Assembly (NCBI RefSeq): GCF_017377655.1
Contig: NZ_JAFREL010000044.1
Coordinates: forward strand, 1 to 55,656
Direction of reading: 5' to 3'
DNA length: 55,656 nucleotides
From: Candidatus Enterococcus ferrettii
GTDB lineage: Bacteria > Bacillota > Bacilli > Lactobacillales > Enterococcaceae
How positions within the stretch are numbered: position 1 is the stretch's first letter; every line of letters begins with the position of its first letter. A program made the position numbers and the translations under genes. The notes under the pieces were generated by a model. The model was not told the DNA's origin. It did not search any database and saw only the letters and a list, made by a program, of their open reading frames with translations. Of the stretch, positions 4,052 to 55,599 are shown piece after piece.

Positions 4052-5548
4052 ATGTTAAAGAATAAATTAGAGGACTTTTTAGACGTTTTATATGAATTCG
4101 ATGTCAAGAAAAAGCTTGTTATATTAAAGATTTTAGAGCAGAATAATTCATGGACTTCCCTTAGCGAATTAACATTAGCATCGAGCTATTCAAAATCCAC
4201 CGTTCTAAAATATTTGGTACAAATAAAGGAAGAAGCTGAAGATGAGACTTCATTTTCTCTTCTTACCGATGATCAGAATTGCTATTATTTGGAACTAAAG
4301 AACTCTTTTGATTTTGGACAGTATTATCGCGGGTTGATTTTTGAAATGTGGCCTACCCAATTGATTAATGATCTAATTACAAGTAATTCAATAAATAAAA
4401 TCCAGTTTATTACCAAACATTTCATTAGTGAATCTGCTTTTAAAAGTAAAATAAAGCAGATCAAAGTCATTTTATCTTTTTTCAGTTTAAAGCTATATGT
4501 ACACAATGGTATTTATTACTTAAGAGGAAATGAAGCCAATATTCGAAGACTTGCGACTGAATTCTATTGGGAATTCTTTAAAGGAGCCTCATGGCCATTT
4601 AAAGTCGTTGATGAAACTATTATTCTAGAGAAAGTGAATAGTATTGAAGATAAGACAGGGATTCCCTTCTCACTAATGGATCGAAAAAAGCTGCATTATC
4701 AGCTTGCCATTCTAGAGCTGCGTTATAAAAAAGGATTCTTCTTCAGATTAAGTCCCTTACTCTCAAGCTTTCTTCCGGTGTTAAGCAAGCTTCAATGGGA
4801 TTTACAATTTCCAATAAGCTTTTTTCCTAGTCGAGATGAACAAAACTACTTTTATTTTTGGTTATCGACAGAGTCAAAGTATTTTGATTATTTCAATGTA
4901 TCGCTGAATAACGAAGCATTTACACTGTTTAAAAAGGAACCTTTAATAACAGTTATCCTCAAGAACATTGACTACATGGATAATAAAATATTCTCTCTTT
5001 CTGCTGAAAAAAAAGAGTTCCTAAAGATCCAGCTGTTAAGTATCTTTATAAATATAACTCTTTTTGAGAATATCCAATCGATTAACCCTAATGAACTAAT
5101 TTATAAGGAGTCTTATACTTTAAAGACCCACCTCGATGAGCTACTGACTATTACTAATCAAGAAATTAAACTCACGGTTGATACAAAAAAATTTTTGTAT
5201 TACAGATATAGAAATATCTTATTATCAACATACTCGATTTCAATTTTTGAAAAAAACCTAATTGTATCTTTTTGTACAGATTTAGAACCTCTTATTGAGA
5301 AAAAACTGCTGAACATTTTGAACCTGTATTTTCAGGATATTTCTAATGTGTCCTTTATTTCTGGAGTAAAATTTACTGATGAGAATATCGATTTAGTTGT
5401 ACATACAGGGTTATCTTCTGAAGAGGTCTTAAAAAAGAACGTTAATGATAGCTTATACCTTGATACCAGGTATCTTTATAACCCTAACTTACCAAATCTG
5501 CTAAATATATTATCTAAACGGATAGATTTCATCAGAAACAAGCACTAA
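4052..5548 (+). CDS. Mga-like / PRD-type transcriptional regulator
   Basis: ATG 4052 has AAAGGA nine bases upstream and is preferred over the in-frame TTG at 4043. The ~498-residue soluble protein starts with two predicted DNA-binding helix regions (LVILKILEQNNSWTSLSELT, then SKSTVLKYLVQI) and continues as a long helical protein, the layout of the Mga/AtxA class. In that class the middle PRD-like domains are phosphorylated by PTS proteins to tune activation of surface-protein genes. No enzyme motif is seen. The gene stands alone, flanked by IS remnants. Its targets are unknown; the WxL loci further right are candidates by position and class only. Confidence 0.75.
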   Translation: MLKNKLEDFLDVLYEFDVKKKLVILKILEQNNSWTSLSELTLASSYSKSTVLKYLVQIKEEAEDETSFSLLTDDQNCYYLELKNSFDFGQYYRGLIFEMWPTQLINDLITSNSINKIQFITKHFISESAFKSKIKQIKVILSFFSLKLYVHNGIYYLRGNEANIRRLATEFYWEFFKGASWPFKVVDETIILEKVNSIEDKTGIPFSLMDRKKLHYQLAILELRYKKGFFFRLSPLLSSFLPVLSKLQWDLQFPISFFPSRDEQNYFYFWLSTESKYFDYFNVSLNNEAFTLFKKEPLITVILKNIDYMDNKIFSLSAEKKEFLKIQLLSIFINITLFENIQSINPNELIYKESYTLKTHLDELLTITNQEIKLTVDTKKFLYYRYRNILLSTYSISIFEKNLIVSFCTDLEPLIEKKLLNILNLYFQDISNVSFISGVKFTDENIDLVVHTGLSSEEVLKKNVNDSLYLDTRYLYNPNLPNLLNILSKRIDFIRNKH

Positions 5549-9399: not shown

Positions 9400-10325
9400 C
9401 CTTTTTCTTGGATGAAAATAGCAAGATTATCAATCAAATGCTAATAAAGGACAACTATTGAACTAGTAAAATTACCCTCTTTATCCAGAATTTCCACTAA
9501 AAAAATGTTAACAAAGCGTTCTCTTCTCGCATGTAAGTCTATGCCACTTGCACTCTCCCTGAAAGGTAATTTTGTTTATTGATCATTTCAATAATTTTAC
9601 TAGCAACTGTAAAAAATACATTGAAATCCTACTAGTTAAAAACCAAATAATTTATTTATTTTAGATAATAAAACTTGTTAAATATTAGTAGATTCATTTT
9701 AATGATTATAAGTCTATTAAATGGAAGATTCAAACGATAATCTCCAATATTAGTTGGGGGATTAAACTAATTATTATAAGTACTAACATCCAATAAATAG
9801 GATTGATCCTTATATAGCTTGTCATAATCAAGTACAAAAATTAAATACTTAGTTGCAGTACTCTCCTTCCCGGCATCACCTGCGACCGTATCAACTTCCA
9901 ACATGTTTTCACTCATCATTTTGCATATAGATTTTAACTGTCATAAGGATAGCTCCATATTCAAACTTACTAAATTTTGATGCTTGATCTTCATTTAGTA
10001 CGAAGGATGTACTAGGAAATACAGTAAACGAACATGGCTGCTGTACTATGATTATGGACAAAATAAATTATAAAAAGTTTTTTTAGGACAATTAAAAACT
10101 TACCTATAAAAGTCAAAAAGCATCTTTCCTTCAGCTGAATCTCTGCTAAAAGCACTGTATCTCGTTATGATGGATGTCATAAAAAATGACTCTAATGTCC
10201 ATTTTCAGGGTTAAATTCTGCCAAGGTTTATCATATTTTTTTGAAAATAGAGTGCTCAAGTATCTTTAACGTAAAAAGAATTTACATAAAAATACTTTAC
10301 AGTCCCGAAAATGTTTTTATTCAAT
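9400..10325. other. Decayed region with scattered gene fragments
   Basis: No intact gene. On the minus strand, short protein-like pieces occur near 9780-10040 (for example MSENMLEVDTVAGDAG and KYLIFVLDYDKLYKD) with stops and frame changes between them, suggesting one or two degraded genes. The family cannot be named. Confidence 0.4.
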
Positions 10326-10573
10326 TTAGTGACGATCCTCGTAATCGATCATCTCCATATTGATAAATTCAGAAATCATTTTTCGATAAACCTTTCGACC
10401 ATGTCTGGTTTGCCATCTTCTTTCATAGTAAGAACCCGAACTTTTTCTATAATTTCCTCGATTCTATATGGTGCTTTTATAACATCCACAGTTGTTTTAA
10501 ATCTGGAAGCTTATTTTACATGACCTTCACGTTCACACGTCGATTGAACAAATTTCGAGTCTAACCGATCCAT
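10326..10573 (-). pseudogene. Small decayed gene, family unknown
   Basis: ATG 10573 has AAGGGA upstream. The frame starts MDRLDSKFVQSTCERE and meets TAA at 10511-10513 after 20 codons, but continues in the same frame with IEEIIEKVRVLTMKEDGK until a second stop near 10380. From there a frame change leads to ISEFINMEMIDYEDRH. Joined, it would make an ~85-residue, partly helical protein. The coherent composition on both sides of the breaks points to a recently inactivated small gene. Function unknown. Confidence 0.35.
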
Positions 10574-46163: not shown

Positions 46164-46652
46164 TTAGCTTAACTCTTCATAAAACCACAAATCATCTGTA
46201 AACGTCTCATCATCGATGATCTTTTCTTGAAAATAACTCTCGCGCATGAACGTTTTGATATTACGATCTTTGCAAAATGAATACTCCCGATCTAACTTTA
46301 TCCAAAATTGCTCTGGGCCTGTTCTATCCCAAAAACCATTGTAGTAATTTTCATCGTAAAAAATGATAATTTGTGAATTCCAATAATAAGGTACTGATAT
46401 TACAGCTACAACTTTACAGAAAGGTAAATCATCTGGCTTTTGAAGAATAAATCTTTCAGTAGTACCTATCCAAGCTCTACAAAATTCTGTTTTTACTTTT
46501 TCTCTTGTTTTTTGACTGTCAATAAAACTACTACTTGGTACATGAAAATGCTGATATTTGCAATCTGTTTCAAGAAATGGGGTGAAGTCATCAATATGTT
46601 TAAGCAACATTTCTAGTTTGCGTCTTTGCCCTCGTTGCTTCTTTTTGTCCAA
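46164..46652 (-). CDS. DUF3916-like protein
   Basis: 162 residues, TTG 46652 as start with GAGGGG upstream. Basic N-terminus (KKKQRGQRRKLEMLL), then HFHVPSSSFIDSQKT, RAWIGTTERFI, and a charged aromatic C-terminus (DRTGPEQFWIKLDREYSF). This pattern resembles the DUF3916 family, small cytoplasmic proteins often found in accessory regions of Firmicutes, some next to toxin or immunity genes. No toxin gene is adjacent. Function unknown. Confidence 0.55.
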   Translation of the reverse strand: MDKKKQRGQRRKLEMLLKHIDDFTPFLETDCKYQHFHVPSSSFIDSQKTREKVKTEFCRAWIGTTERFILQKPDDLPFCKVVAVISVPYYWNSQIIIFYDENYYNGFWDRTGPEQFWIKLDREYSFCKDRNIKTFMRESYFQEKIIDDETFTDDLWFYEELS

Positions 46653-48649: not shown

Positions 48650-48844
48650 TCAGGATCATCCGTTAAGGATGTTCAGGAAAAACTAGGTCATGCTGACATT
48701 CAAACGACATACAATATTTACACTCATGTGACTGAAACCAAAGGTAAAAAATCTCTGGATGATTTCGCCAATTTTCTAAAGCGATACAACCTTTATGCAA
48801 CCTATTTACTCTATAAAGACAAAAAAGACGCTTTCTCGAAATGA
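48650..48844 (+). pseudogene. Integrase C-terminal remnant
   Basis: A 64-codon stretch with no start reads SSVKDVQEKLGHADIQTT, then IYTHVTETKGKKSLDDF, ending at TGA 48842. This is the last part of a phage/ICE tyrosine integrase, with the catalytic His (LGHAD) and Tyr (NIYTHV) kept but everything upstream lost. It marks the edge of a former mobile element. Confidence 0.8.
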
Positions 48845-48855
48845 GTAAGCGTCTT
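48825..48855 (+). terminator. Hairpin at the integrase end
   Basis: Arms AAGACGCTT and AAGCGTCTT around a 13-base loop that contains the integrase stop codon. An A-run precedes it, so it could also act on the minus strand. Confidence 0.55.
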
Positions 48856-49131
48856 GAAACGTTGATATGATAATGTTCTTAACGTTTTGAGAATTGGCTC
48901 GCTTTGCGGGCTTTTTTCAAACCTGGTTCAATTGCTCGAATTTTAAATAAGCTTCAAAAACCTTTAATATCAATGACTTTTAGCTATTTAAACAGCAAAA
49001 ATTTTGTTGACTTTTAAAATATTTGAAAGTACAGGTGTCAATTAATTATTCGCGAGCCGATTCAATACTAACCTAATATAAACAAATATAATTTAACTAA
49101 AATAGAAATATATCCACATGCTATTAAATAT

Positions 49132-52100
49132 TTATCTGTCTCGATTTCCTTCATACATTTCTGAAATATGAATTTTGTAATTTGTAGCATCTTTTTCAAC
49201 TAGAAACCATTTTTCAATAAACTGTGAACCGATTGATTCACTTCCCCACGATCTCCAAAACAATTGTTGCTTAGTTTTATTCATATATTCAGTAATTTTT
49301 ACTTGACCAAACCACAGAGAATGTTCATATCCATAGACAATTCCATCAAAAGCGACTATTTCATCATTATCATCTTTCCAAACTCCATCATTAATTGACG
49401 TCAAAGAAAAATAATCTACTAAATTTTTTGAAGGAAGATATAAACTCACTCCATCATCAAGTGAAAAATCATCGTTACTTTCCCACAAATACTCATAAAC
49501 AGCATACTCTTTATGTTCTCCATCTTCATCATCATATAAATTTTCGAAATAATCATACGCTGGACTCCAATATAATTCATGCAAAAAAATATTTACGTTG
49601 CTGGGCGCTGAAACCCCTTGTCCATAATTCTTAATATTGTCTTCAATTATCTTATCTTTAACACTCTCTTTTGAGAAGAACGCTACTCCTACCACAGAAC
49701 TAGCAGATTTCAATTCTCGTAAATCTTCTTCATTATTATAGCGGAAATATAGATTTATATATTTTTTCCCATTGCACTCACATTCAATAAACTCTTTATT
49801 CACATTAAAGATGTTGGGCTCTGTTAATGAAGGTGGCTGAGAATAACTAAGTAGCTTTCCTTTAGGATCAGGTAACTCGGTATTATAAGTTGGATCAATA
49901 TTTTTCATATAATCTTCAAATGGCCCCTGAAAGTACCGCTGATTCACTTTTTTTATTTCTATAATATGATCCTCAGCATTCATTTCTTCTGTTACGTTTT
50001 GTGCCTCCTCTTCCCCATCATCGCTATCCCAATCAAACGATGTCAGAGAACTCATGAGTCGATCATAATATTGCTCTTGATATACTTGATACTCTGCATC
50101 ATAAAAAATTTTTTCTTCATATATCTGAAAATTATCTGCTAGTTTAGCTAACACTTCATAATAAGCAATCCATTGATACTTCTTTCCTATTCTTTCAATA
50201 CTATGATTATGTCGATCATAATTTGAAGCTTGGGTGTTATCAAAATACGCATGTAACTTAGGGGAAAAGCCAATTTCGAAAACTCTTTTAAAAGCAATAT
50301 TACTTAAGTCCTGATCGTTAAATTGGTTATTCCATGGAGATACTCTTGAACCAAAAATATATCTACCAAAATCACCATAAGCGCCAGTCCCGCGCCCGTA
50401 CTCTGTAGTCATTGAACTTCTAATTCTATAAACAGAATTCCCCTCATCTTTTCCAATACTTTCATATTTCTTAACACAAGAATCTACGTCATCATTGGAG
50501 AACTGAAAATCATACCAACATGATCTGTAAGGCGGTGATATTAATTTTCGATCAATATATTTACATAAACCTTTAGATAAAGCAAATTCTATTGATTGTC
50601 TTGCATAATCTCGCAATAATACATTCGGAATTACCTCATCTTGATGAAATATTGTATCGTAAATAAATTTCGCTGTAGATTCTATAACTTGGTAATCCTC
50701 AATTTTCACAATAGCTCCAAAAACAGCTGCATACAGACGTTCCCTTATATATAAATCCGAGACATCTTTGAAAGACTTAAGGATGTCCTTTATTAAATCA
50801 GGTTTCTTTATTAAAATTAATGAGATAACTTTAGTTGCATTATCCCTTACCTCACCATTCACAGATGAAAGAAGCCATATGAGTTGCTTCAATGTTAAAT
50901 TTAATTGACTAGATGAATATACTGTGTAATTTCGCTTAATCCTATTAATAAACTGCAATGCGAATGAATAGTAACGGTTTGAAATTCTAGTTGTCCAAAC
51001 ATAGTCTCTCAAATCATTAGGCAAAGGTAAAAGAAAAGCTGTCAGCCATTCTGAATTAAACGGACTTTCTAAATCTACTGCAAGTAAAAATTGTTTATTC
51101 AAGAAATCCATCATCAAATTATCATTATTAAATATATTTCTTAAAACATCTTTGATTGATTCTGAATTCAAAGAGGCTGTCCGCCACGGTACGCTCTCGA
51201 TAAAAGCTCTCTCTAAATCATAAAAATCATCTTTATCCTCAATAAAATCAGTGATTTCCGCATTCTTACTATTTGGAAGCATAAAGAAAAGTATTTCCAC
51301 AATTCCATACTCATTATTAGCTAATAGCAAATCTTGTATCACTGTTCCAAAAGCTTCTACATTCTGATCAAATTTCGAAATAATGTCATTTGCAATAAAG
51401 AAATCCCGAATTTTCTCATAAGTAAAATGAATTTTTTCCTCTCCATCAAAGCTCGTAAACTTACTAAATAGATTTTCTTTAATCAATTCATCGAGATATT
51501 GTCTACTCGTTGTTATATCATAATCAAGTTTTCTTGAAATTTCATTCTTAACTTCCCGATAATTCAAGAAATTGCTGTGAGTGTTTAGCATCTCATGAGA
51601 AATATATTCAATCATTGATTGCAAGTATTTCCCATCGTAATTTAGCCTATGCTCAGTACTTATTTCTTTCTCTATATGCTTTATATATTGAGCAATCAAG
51701 CTTTCCCATGTCAATTTTTTCTTCGATGAATTAGGCATCAGAGATGAAATTGCAGCAAGTTTTAAAAATAAGGGACTTGAGAATTCTGGATATATTTTCA
51801 AAAGTTCGCCTCTATCCAATCCAAAATATCTTTCAAATTTCTCTATTTCATGGTCTTCCGCTGTTGTAATCCCATCATGATTATAAATTTGAAAATCATT
51901 TTGCTCAGTAAAATTCTCCGGAAGAATACTTTTAACATAGGTTGATCTAATTGAAAAAACTATACCAATATTTTTATATTTAGAAATCTTACTAGTCATT
52001 ATCTGCAACTGTGTTTGCCAAAACCTATTTAGACCTGTCTCATTCAGTGCATCAATCATGATGCAACCCCTTTTACCACGTTTTTCAGAGAACCTGTCAA

Positions 52101-53220
52101 ACTGATATAAAAATTCTTCCACTGAAATTGTATAACCAAAATTCTCTACAATCTGTTGTAATGGATCTTTAGTAGGTAGAAATTGCTGTCCCAAAGTAAA
52201 AATGATCGGATGGCCTAGTTGCTCCATCTTCTCGACATTATCAGCTAAAAGATGGGACTTCCCGATTGCAGCATCACCGGTGATTATTAAAAACGGATGA
52301 TTCCATAGTTTCATTTTTGTCTCAGCAACAAAATCTTCAAAATCACTAAGAGCTCTTTTAGTATCATAAAAATAATGTTTTTGAATATCCGTTAGTTCCT
52401 TTTGAACATCACTATTTTTCACGAAAAATGTAGCAACCTTATCAACATTCTGTTCAATTAAATCAGTGCTTACTATTTCAGATGTTTCTATTTTTACTAC
52501 CTCTTCGCATTCTTTTTCACAACCACTTTGACTTTTATACTTATCAAATTGATTAATAATTTCATTATAGAAACTTATCAACTTTGTCTGGAAAGTTCTA
52601 GTCTGAAATAATGCTTCAAAAGGTTCGTTTCCAATTGTTGCAATATTAATTTCAGGTGAATATCGTTCTCCCAGACTTATTATTGAAGTTTGATTATTGT
52701 TATATAGAAGTTGACTTGTAAACTTAAAATTATCATTTGACGGCTTGGTTAGTTGCTCTTCCAAAAGAGTGTTAATCGCAGGTAATAAAACATCTTTAAT
52801 CTCAGCGGTTAACAAGATATTTTCTAGTCCTAAAATGCGCTCTCTTTCTGAAATAAGATGTGCGCTTAATCGACTAAAATAATCCTCAATAATTACTTTA
52901 TCGGTAAAAGGACTTACTCCTTGAGAAATTCGCTTTGCATTAATTTTATTAATTACATCACTAACAATTTTATCTAAAGTGGCAGAATCTTGCTCTTGTC
53001 CAAAAATAAATATCTTAGAAAAATAACTCGATACAAGTGGACTTTCACAAAGATACTTTTCAAAAGTATTCGTATCTAATTCTGTATTATTAAAGTTTTC
53101 ATCAAAAGATTGAATATTTGCTTTTAAATCACTTAATATTCTTGTCTCTCTTTTTTTATCTTTAAAACTCGTTAATACTTCACTAAAAGCGAAGTCAAAT
53201 AATTTTTCTAGTATTAACAT
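49132..53220 (-). CDS. STAND/NACHT-like P-loop ATPase, candidate antiviral sensor
   Basis: About 1362 residues. ATG 53220 follows a strong GGGGGG site; an in-frame ATG 27 bases upstream lacks one. TATAAT is present about 45 bases before the start. An N-terminal region (1-290) is helical, with no recognised catalytic motif. Then comes a STAND-type NTPase: Walker A TGDAAIGKSHLL near 315, Walker B CIMIDALNETG near 385, VFSIRSTYVK as sensor segment, followed by winged-helix-like HFTYEKIRDFFIA. Residues ~620-900 are helical and HEAT-like, and the rest (900-1362) is mixed, acidic and beta-rich. This three-part build (effector, switch, long sensor) matches Avs-like phage-sensing proteins. No partner gene is adjacent and the effector activity is unknown. 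Confidence 0.75.
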   Translation of the reverse strand: MLILEKLFDFAFSEVLTSFKDKKRETRILSDLKANIQSFDENFNNTELDTNTFEKYLCESPLVSSYFSKIFIFGQEQDSATLDKIVSDVINKINAKRISQGVSPFTDKVIIEDYFSRLSAHLISERERILGLENILLTAEIKDVLLPAINTLLEEQLTKPSNDNFKFTSQLLYNNNQTSIISLGERYSPEINIATIGNEPFEALFQTRTFQTKLISFYNEIINQFDKYKSQSGCEKECEEVVKIETSEIVSTDLIEQNVDKVATFFVKNSDVQKELTDIQKHYFYDTKRALSDFEDFVAETKMKLWNHPFLIITGDAAIGKSHLLADNVEKMEQLGHPIIFTLGQQFLPTKDPLQQIVENFGYTISVEEFLYQFDRFSEKRGKRGCIMIDALNETGLNRFWQTQLQIMTSKISKYKNIGIVFSIRSTYVKSILPENFTEQNDFQIYNHDGITTAEDHEIEKFERYFGLDRGELLKIYPEFSSPLFLKLAAISSLMPNSSKKKLTWESLIAQYIKHIEKEISTEHRLNYDGKYLQSMIEYISHEMLNTHSNFLNYREVKNEISRKLDYDITTSRQYLDELIKENLFSKFTSFDGEEKIHFTYEKIRDFFIANDIISKFDQNVEAFGTVIQDLLLANNEYGIVEILFFMLPNSKNAEITDFIEDKDDFYDLERAFIESVPWRTASLNSESIKDVLRNIFNNDNLMMDFLNKQFLLAVDLESPFNSEWLTAFLLPLPNDLRDYVWTTRISNRYYSFALQFINRIKRNYTVYSSSQLNLTLKQLIWLLSSVNGEVRDNATKVISLILIKKPDLIKDILKSFKDVSDLYIRERLYAAVFGAIVKIEDYQVIESTAKFIYDTIFHQDEVIPNVLLRDYARQSIEFALSKGLCKYIDRKLISPPYRSCWYDFQFSNDDVDSCVKKYESIGKDEGNSVYRIRSSMTTEYGRGTGAYGDFGRYIFGSRVSPWNNQFNDQDLSNIAFKRVFEIGFSPKLHAYFDNTQASNYDRHNHSIERIGKKYQWIAYYEVLAKLADNFQIYEEKIFYDAEYQVYQEQYYDRLMSSLTSFDWDSDDGEEEAQNVTEEMNAEDHIIEIKKVNQRYFQGPFEDYMKNIDPTYNTELPDPKGKLLSYSQPPSLTEPNIFNVNKEFIECECNGKKYINLYFRYNNEEDLRELKSASSVVGVAFFSKESVKDKIIEDNIKNYGQGVSAPSNVNIFLHELYWSPAYDYFENLYDDEDGEHKEYAVYEYLWESNDDFSLDDGVSLYLPSKNLVDYFSLTSINDGVWKDDNDEIVAFDGIVYGYEHSLWFGQVKITEYMNKTKQQLFWRSWGSESIGSQFIEKWFLVEKDATNYKIHISEMYEGNRDR

Positions 53221-53309: not shown

Positions 53310-53350
53310 AAAAGCCATGTAGAGATTGATCCCCACATGGCTTTTCTTTT
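53310..53350 (-). terminator. Terminator after the lipoprotein gene
   Basis: AGCCATGTGGGG and a near-complement ending ACATGGCT, followed on the minus strand by TTTTG. It separates the lipoprotein transcript from the ATPase gene. Confidence 0.8.
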
Positions 53351-53356
53351 ATGAGA

Positions 53357-54607
53357 TTATTTTTTACGTGGTTCAAACGCAACATACATTATACGAGTAG
53401 CATGCCCATAATTTCCTGTTGTTCCACCTAAATTTTCAATCGTTATCGTGGCACCAATATCTACTTGTTTTTGCGTGGCATCCGTATACTTTAAATCGTC
53501 ACCGTATCGTTGGGCATACTCATGATGAATAATTGCATTTTCCCATTGATAATCCGAAGTATTCTTTATTGTAACGCTCTCAATCTCACCAGCGGCATTA
53601 TTATTTGTTTTGAGTTCATAATCACTATCCAACGCTTGGTACCAGTCACCTGTATTAATCTCTTTCCCACGGTATATAATAGCTGTCTTATCAGCATTAA
53701 TTTCTGGATCACTATAAATTGAAGGATCATCCCCCACATTTAAAGAAAAAGTAAATTCTTTTTCTTCCCCTTTATCAATATGATAAATTGCATACCGTGT
53801 ATCTTCTCCAAGCGCTGTCAGGTCGTACTTTCCAAGAATAGAAGACTGATTAACAATTGAATTGAACTCTTCATTAGTGGTCTCATCTTCTCCATAACCA
53901 TTTGTTTCGTGTCTCTTCATAGTGCCATAAATTGTTACTGAGTCAATGAAATAATCAGAGTTATTCTTTACTCTCAAACTCATTTTTCCGTTTTCAGGAT
54001 CATATTTCACATCAGAAAAAGCAACCTCGCTTACTTCATCTATGTCAGCTGTTTCTGCTTCTTCATTAGAACTGCTTTCACTAGCACTAGCTTCAACTGG
54101 AGCAGGTGTATCAAAAATTTGATGCCATGTTTTTTGTCCTAGAAAAATTTCTTGATATTTTTTTCCTTCACTAGTATCAGCTTTATAAAATTTTACTTTA
54201 TTCTTTTCTCCAACTGTTAAAACACCCTCTTTAGATGTAAATTTAATTCCCTTCATGCTGCTTATATCCAATCCGCCAGCAAGATAGTTGTCTAGCCCGG
54301 TATCTAAAGTTGTTGATTCCTCTGCTAGCTTACTATTCATAATATCCCCATCAACATCAAGAGTCCCTGTGTTGTGCCCATTACCATACATACCGATCTC
54401 CGTTATGTCATATTTTTTATTCGATTTATCTACTCGCTTAACTATCACTTGATGTAAAATATTATCATTTCCTGACATATCAGCATGTGACTTGTCATTT
54501 TGAACATAAAAATAAGTACCAGATAAGTCTGCTTGATTATTTCCACAACCGGCTAATAGAATAAGTCCAAATAAAGCAGCGCCTACTATTGTTAACATTT
54601 TCCTCAA
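53357..54607 (-). CDS. Predicted lipoprotein of unknown function
   Basis: TTG 54607 is chosen (eight bases after AGGAG); codons just upstream overlap the ribosome site. The start MRKMLTIVGAALFG and the lipobox LLAGC define a lipoprotein signal, so it is anchored on the outer face of the membrane. After a first beta-rich domain (to about 170) comes a Ser/Glu/Ala linker (EASASESSSNEEAETAD). A second domain follows with VAFSDVKYDPENGKMSL and VKNNSDYFIDSVTIYG, a pattern of extracellular beta-sandwich folds. Not recognised further. It lies in an operon with the membrane protein upstream, 46 bases apart. Confidence 0.7.
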   Translation of the reverse strand: MRKMLTIVGAALFGLILLAGCGNNQADLSGTYFYVQNDKSHADMSGNDNILHQVIVKRVDKSNKKYDITEIGMYGNGHNTGTLDVDGDIMNSKLAEESTTLDTGLDNYLAGGLDISSMKGIKFTSKEGVLTVGEKNKVKFYKADTSEGKKYQEIFLGQKTWHQIFDTPAPVEASASESSSNEEAETADIDEVSEVAFSDVKYDPENGKMSLRVKNNSDYFIDSVTIYGTMKRHETNGYGEDETTNEEFNSIVNQSSILGKYDLTALGEDTRYAIYHIDKGEEKEFTFSLNVGDDPSIYSDPEINADKTAIIYRGKEINTGDWYQALDSDYELKTNNNAAGEIESVTIKNTSDYQWENAIIHHEYAQRYGDDLKYTDATQKQVDIGATITIENLGGTTGNYGHATRIMYVAFEPRKK

Positions 54608-54653
54608 ATTTTCCAACTCCTAAAAATTTATTTTTCATAATCTTTCCGTAAGC

Positions 54654-55142
54654 TTAGTTCCAAACATCATTTTTACCCGTATCGACGAAGAGAATCTTAT
54701 TATGCTTAACCGCTTTTCGCCATGTTTTAATACCGCTAAACGGTGCTATAAATGCTATCCAAATTTGAATGACGATATTTTGAACTACCATTTTCCAGAT
54801 TAAACTCCAAATTGAGCCAAAGTAAATAATATTTCTAGAAAATGTATCAATCACTCCGTTTTGATAACTCCAGTAGGCATAATGCCAAAAAGTAAACGCA
54901 ACTACAGCCCAAATTAACGGTACTATGCTAGTTGTACTAAATAGACTGTTATCCTCCGTTGACTGCATATATCGAAGCACTATGAATAGCAATAAGCAGC
55001 CAATGAATCGTCTTATATTGTATTGCTTGCGATATTCATCAGACAGGTGATCTTTAATAGAAGCATAAGTGCCTTTTGCCTTACCAACATAGTCTTTCTC
55101 TTCCTTATCAATAACCTCAATCTTTCCCTTTTGTTCATTCAT
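54654..55142 (-). CDS. Predicted membrane protein of unknown function
   Basis: 162 residues with a charged N-terminus (EKDYVGKAKGTYASIKDHLS), three membrane segments (RRFIGCLLLFIVLRYM, SIVPLIWAVVAFTFWHYAYW, WKMVVQNIVIQIWIAFIAPF) and a short basic end. ATG 55142 has AAAGGAGAG. First gene of the pair with the lipoprotein. Divergent from the Xre regulator. Confidence 0.65.
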   Translation of the reverse strand: MNEQKGKIEVIDKEEKDYVGKAKGTYASIKDHLSDEYRKQYNIRRFIGCLLLFIVLRYMQSTEDNSLFSTTSIVPLIWAVVAFTFWHYAYWSYQNGVIDTFSRNIIYFGSIWSLIWKMVVQNIVIQIWIAFIAPFSGIKTWRKAVKHNKILFVDTGKNDVWN

Positions 55143-55287: not shown

Positions 55288-55599
55288 ATGGATATAAAAT
55301 ATTTTAGCGACAAACTCAAAGCAGTAAGAAAATCAAAGAAAATGACTCAAAGTGACTTAGCTGAAAAAATAGGAGTTTCAAAATGGGCTATCACCTCTTA
55401 TGAACAAGCTCGAACTTATCCTAGTGTTGAGACTCTAATGAAGATTTGCGAAGCTTTAAACACATCTTCAGACTATTTATTGGGTATATCTGATAATTTA
55501 CCAACAAAATTAAGTTTGGTTGGATTATCAGAAGAAGAAGTTCGTCTACTTTTGCAATTCCTAAATTTGGTAGAGCAAAATAGAAACTCTAAAAAATGA
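55288..55599 (+). CDS. Xre-family (Cro/CI-type) transcriptional regulator
   Basis: 103 residues. Helix-turn-helix at residues 5-60 (LKAVRKSKKMTQSDLAEKIG, then WAITSYEQARTYPSVETLM and SSDYLLGISD). A short C-terminal helix (LSEEEVRLLLQFLNLVEQN) may dimerise. No ribosome site precedes ATG 55288, and the -10 box is only about 10 bases away, so the mRNA may be nearly leaderless. It probably represses itself and the divergent membrane/lipoprotein pair. Confidence 0.85.
   Translation: MDIKYFSDKLKAVRKSKKMTQSDLAEKIGVSKWAITSYEQARTYPSVETLMKICEALNTSSDYLLGISDNLPTKLSLVGLSEEEVRLLLQFLNLVEQNRNSKK

Follow-up and report, generated by a model that had tools for sequence, protein, structure and literature searches.

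The window analysed here (the whole stretch of 55,656 nucleotides, positions 1 to 55,656 of contig NZ_JAFREL010000044.1 of Candidatus Enterococcus ferrettii) carries on its minus strand an avs2-like gene, positions 49132-53220, which encodes a STAND nucleoside triphosphatase (NTPase) and is defined by its open reading frame (ORF) and by profile matches. The ORF begins with ATG and has 1362 codons; an alternative, longer reading from a TTG start extends to 53247. An earlier note on this DNA had described a large STAND protein with a helical N-terminal region and a C-terminal part that is first helical and then rich in strands, and this architecture was recovered. The 1362-residue protein includes a Walker A motif, GDAAIGKS (residues 315-322; 52255-52278, minus strand as for all segments of the gene), and a Walker B motif, IDALNE (residues 389-394; 52039-52056). 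Residues 1-290 give an all-helical model with a predicted local distance difference test (pLDDT) score of 75.9. They comprise an N-terminal domain (residues 1-165; 52726-53220), a putative effector outside the known families, and a linker (residues 166-290; 52351-52725), which is common to other Avs2-like proteins and contains GERYSPE at residues 184-190. In the model of the C-terminal half (mean pLDDT 89.2) a mostly helical part (residues 600-1032; 50125-51423) is followed by a strand-rich part (residues 1033-1362; 49135-50124), the latter also supported by alignment.

Sequence comparison identifies the STAND core as Avs2-like. The PADLOC Avs2 model PDLC02164 matches residues 163-965 with 634.5 bits (best E value 1.2e-190). 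All six PADLOC families that match the protein at E<=1 are Avs2, and no PADLOC match to the Avs3 sequence profile was obtained at this threshold. The sole sequence match in the PDB at E<=10 is a solved Avs2 (9o4e_A, 4.6e-82). With a 100-sequence profile (the C-terminal part of the window protein and 99 relatives) this match rises to 4.2e-270, accompanied by two further weak matches (6.8e-05 and 0.0055). Pfam NACHT is not among the matches of the protein, while NPHP3_N (16 of 24.8 bits) and AAA_22 (15.2 of 27) remain below cutoff. Since the NCBIfam Avs2 model NF041813 gives 581.9 bits, under its 1000-bit equivalog cutoff, the protein is filed as Avs2-like (AVAST type 2) and not as an NCBI equivalog.

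The C-terminal half had been taken for a sensor of an undescribed type. This view could not be maintained because homologues named Avs2 align along it, and both sequence and model indicate that it is Avs2/Avs3-like. Two such proteins, P0127 and P0131, align at 31-32% over 91-99% of residues 940-1362. The single PDB fold match of the C-terminal model at E<=0.001 is Avs3 bound to the PhiV-1 terminase (8dgc), although the similarity is weak (TM-score 0.32, 11-12% identity). By analogy with characterised Avs proteins (PMC12724215, PMC12931631), this half would bind a conserved phage protein, for which the large terminase subunit is, by a modest preference, the most likely candidate. That the protein is a defence STAND sensing something else, for example another phage protein, is a serious alternative. 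The same two sources describe a Klebsiella Avs2-family protein that responds to Ksap1 as well, and the low TM-score of the Avs3 match also weighs against terminase as the ligand; on the other side, it is terminase-bound Avs3 that forms the top structural match of the sensor. Separately, the Staphylococcus phage UPMK_1 record MG543995.1 (152.8 kb) encodes at 102928-104856 a product, annotated as hypothetical, that is 33% identical to part of residues 600-1282.

For the N-terminal domain, which was said to match no effector that could be named, our searches led to the same result. Residues 1-165 gave no family above cutoff, nuclease families included, in Pfam, PADLOC and NCBIfam searches. A fold search of the PDB with the helical model, itself of pLDDT 76, gave no usable match, the comparison with four-helix bundles (HeLo/MLKL/CC-type) included. 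When 15 diverse members of the domain were scanned, every match came from one member only (best E values 0.0015 in Pfam and 0.0026 in PADLOC). No description of the domain was found in the literature searched, which left out most subscription papers.

It is rather unlikely, in our view, that the domain is an unrecognised enzyme such as a nuclease or RNase. Across 70 aligned rows I36, F39, D49, F53, F71, N94, Y114, L118, L122 and R126 are near-invariant, and four of these (D49 in 68/70, N94 in 65/70, Y114 in 68/70 and R126 in 64/70) could be read as an enzyme signature. The window protein's own N-terminal Pfam matches, both far below cutoff, are to DUF5920 and, at residues 81-126, to the endoribonuclease family YicC-like_C; nuclease effector activity has also been described for Avs1-4, according to PMC12931631. 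Against an enzyme, no such family reaches its cutoff and each Pfam match is confined to 1 of the 15 members. Moreover, at +4 to +6 after R126 the most frequent residues in the 70 rows do not include the H that would be expected for RxxxxH, which we take to be the RNase motif of HEPN proteins.

A role at the membrane is possible. The first 43 residues reach a mean hydropathy of 1.0 over 19 residues in 58 of 80 N-domain proteins (counted from residue 1 and made without a shuffle control), compared with 14/80 for residues 46-88 and 3/55 for relatives with other N-termini; a value of 1.6 is reached in 14/80. An earlier count, in which the first residues were skipped, was weaker (28/80 at >=1.0, compared with 15.8% of shuffles and 14/80 for the next stretch). 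The window protein itself peaks at 1.16, and its second segment has a net charge of 0 and so is not basic, whereas this segment is positive in 57 of the 80 proteins. We suggest only tentatively that the domain uses its hydrophobic first helix to act at the membrane. More doubtful still is the specific proposal that it is a membrane-permeabilising effector, in which phage-triggered assembly of the Avs2-like core would drive the hydrophobic N-terminal helices into the membrane. In bacteria it would then correspond to the CC-NLR resistosomes of plants and the HeLo NLRs of fungi, and it would be a cassette common to three different NTPase classes in Bacilli.

The profile of the domain matches 80 of the 144 proteins collected, a proportion that is not a frequency in nature since the window protein served as the query in collecting them. 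Other N-termini occur on the same core: SMEK in 27 proteins (all by Pfam PF21941), trypsin-like in 10 (5 by Pfam PF13365 and 5 by eye) and a WQAKYF-type motif in 18 (a group set by eye). The last group, which includes P0127 and P0131, we presume from the motif to be nuclease-like. In a FastTree tree of the core (135 rows) the four N-terminus labels need 10 changes compared with a shuffled mean of 50.7, and for the helical label the number is 3, every one imposed by starred branches. Exact counts are soft, as FastTree issued a long-branch warning. Nine of the 144 proteins, most of them short or N-terminally incomplete, were dropped before the tree and the hydropathy counts as their N-terminus type was unassigned (P0033, P0045, P0065, P0109, P0114, P0119, P0141, P0142 and P0143). 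One protein, P0116, carries the helical domain (minus its first residues) within an otherwise nuclease-like branch and is a candidate for a recent effector swap. By sequence, then, the domain is exchangeable, occupying a slot in which relatives carry SMEK, trypsin-like or nuclease-like N-termini. This fits PMC12799240, in which defence systems, AVAST among them, are described as having acquired protease-nuclease pairs repeatedly.

The domain is also fused to two types of NTPase besides the Avs2-like one. A related domain (a weaker match, 2.2e-10) starts a 799-residue NACHT protein (Pfam NACHT, 3.5e-09) in locus L009. In L011 the domain (5.2e-26) starts a 1462-residue protein with a different NTPase (GKAGRGKS by eye; a weak match to PADLOC PDC-M54A, 9e-11), of which L008 encodes a shorter, 778-residue relative. 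The genes for this second type with the helical domain (L008:8839-11175 and L011:8853-13241, from two genomes) both lie close to a gene whose protein reads like RlmH, in staphylococci the attachment gene of the cassette chromosome (SCC). In genome scans with no more than 9 candidate sites scored in each genome, the domain was found in 5 of 398 genomes sampled from the class (the own genome counted) and in 1 of 398 from the phylum, the own one; none was found outside Bacilli. The window protein is matched at 1e-60 in 7 of 395 genomes sampled across the order, again counting its own, and at 1e-50 in 1 of 105 genomes of the same family, its own.

The surroundings of the gene correspond to the AT-rich setting and adjacent integrase remnant that had been reported. 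The GC content is 30-35% across 46-55 kb, while most of 27-45 kb lies at about 40-46%; further AT-rich stretches exist elsewhere in the window (for example, 4-11 kb). At a distance of 203 bp from the avs2-like gene lies a displaced 3' end of rpsI, the gene for ribosomal protein S9 (48879-48928, minus strand), its 50 bp being 100% identical to the rpsI 3' end of a same-genus genome. This is the probable edge of an island. Just outside it is the C-terminal remnant of a tyrosine integrase (48665-48808, plus strand; PF00589 at 21.8 bits and E 1.8e-4, short of the 27.1 cutoff), probably belonging to an earlier insertion. With remnant and displaced end side by side (48665-48928), insertion appears to have occurred repeatedly at the rpsI 3' end here.

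Contig C148 carries the rpsI of this genome itself, whose 3' end differs from the displaced copy. Between this rpsI and the end of a complete tyrosine integrase of 431 residues (PF00589, 1.2e-15) there are 22 bp. Ahead of the integrase lie a helix-turn-helix (HTH) gene, whose match falls just short of its cutoff, a gene for a RepB-like replication protein, one for a P-loop ATPase that matches FtsK/HerA weakly, and a sigma-like gene. Because a displaced rpsI end lies so near the avs2-like gene and the true rpsI has a complete integrase next to it, the gene is probably cargo at the far edge of an element integrated at rpsI, and the C148 stretch with these genes leading into rpsI (L038:1-6620) probably represents the island's other half. 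We infer that contigs C97 and C148 adjoin: a 16-nt inverted repeat near their ends, seen by eye, suggests this, although no exact overlap of 12-200 bases was found between the ends. Plasmid records with DNA related to this stretch of C148 number 164 and are mainly from Enterococcus (79) and Staphylococcus (47), a distribution that points to a host probably related to Enterococcus. In Fundicoccus ignavus, a contig (L001) carries rpsI (4103-4495, placed by eye) and, 5.5 kb downstream, a remnant of 161 residues (9971-10456) that shares 89% identity with the window protein and may be a decayed copy at this same site. A DUF3916 gene in the window (46164-46652) has a 78% identical stretch in a same-genus genome (L034), about 3.7 kb from its rpsI, and is possibly another cargo of the site.

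Upstream of the avs2-like gene there is a terminator-like hairpin (53310-53345, minus strand; a consensus match only), which fits the single-gene unit that had been proposed. It is followed by a lipoprotein-like ORF of 419 residues (53357-54616, minus strand; recognised by eye, Pfam giving nothing above cutoff), a probable island gene, and by a 162-residue ORF (54654-55142, minus strand) whose DNA is 75% identical to a stretch of the same-genus locus L035, which also carries an integrase and a Rep gene. An HTH_3 (Cro/CI-type) repressor-like gene, identified with Pfam, is at 55288-55599 on the plus strand. The neighbour genes scanned in the window gave no defence match in Pfam or PADLOC, save many to the HTH gene. 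A BLASTP comparison of ORFs at 1e-5 revealed no related neighbour gene common to the window and loci L010, L018 and L019. In the scans of neighbours, which took in one gene each at L010 and L019, the relative in L018 proved to be near resolvase and type I restriction-modification genes.

These observations bear on whether the N-terminal domain, rather than being the effector, serves as an adaptor or oligomerisation module to which a separate effector is recruited, an explanation we consider rather unlikely. It would account for a domain with no recognised catalytic motif and no family above cutoff, and in-trans recruitment by adaptor domains has been proposed for other STAND systems (PMC10907252). 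However, a stand-alone gene is favoured, and an obligatory partner effector nearby disfavoured, by the hairpin and by the lack of a BLASTP-related neighbour common to the four loci; in addition, relatives carry proteases or nuclease-like domains in the slot of this domain.

Our preferred interpretation, which we hold to be reasonably likely, is that of an Avs2-like antiphage receptor, probably carried by an integrative element at rpsI. After binding of the phage protein by the C-terminal half, the NTPase would quite probably oligomerise, by the same analogy. Clustering would bring the N-terminal domains together and activate their toxicity, and the infected cell would stop growing or die. The best reading is thus an abortive-infection receptor, probably triggered by terminase, with an unnamed, exchangeable and possibly membrane-acting helical effector. 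STAND proteins also include transcription regulators, but a non-defence regulator is highly improbable and was rejected: Avs2 profiles dominate, no DNA-binding family is among the Pfam and NCBIfam matches, and the gene, matched in 1 of 105 genomes of the family (its own), is on a probable mobile island. The earlier interpretation therefore stands in part. The antiviral STAND protein is upheld by the strong Avs2 profiles, the Avs3-like sensor model and the probable mobile island. The unnamed effector is upheld as well, but the new sensor type gives way to a family already known, whose sensor is familiar. What stands out is the putative effector cassette. Unnamed, not nuclease-looking and frequent among the Avs2-like relatives collected, it would widen the known actions of triggered bacterial NLR-like proteins.

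Compared with known systems, the window protein is closest to Avs2 (the PADLOC models, NF041813 and PDB 9o4e), with which it shares a homologous NTPase core and C-terminal half in a single large gene, while scoring below the NCBI equivalog cutoff. The NCBI-named Avs2 proteins P0127 and P0131 differ in that its N-terminal domain was not detected in either with the hidden Markov model of the domain. Avs3 with the PhiV-1 terminase resembles it in the C-terminal half, as the top structural match, but differs in sequence, and by TM-score the match is weak. Finally, relatives with a SMEK or trypsin domain have the core in common but another module in the N-terminal slot; those aligned over the C-terminal half share this as well.
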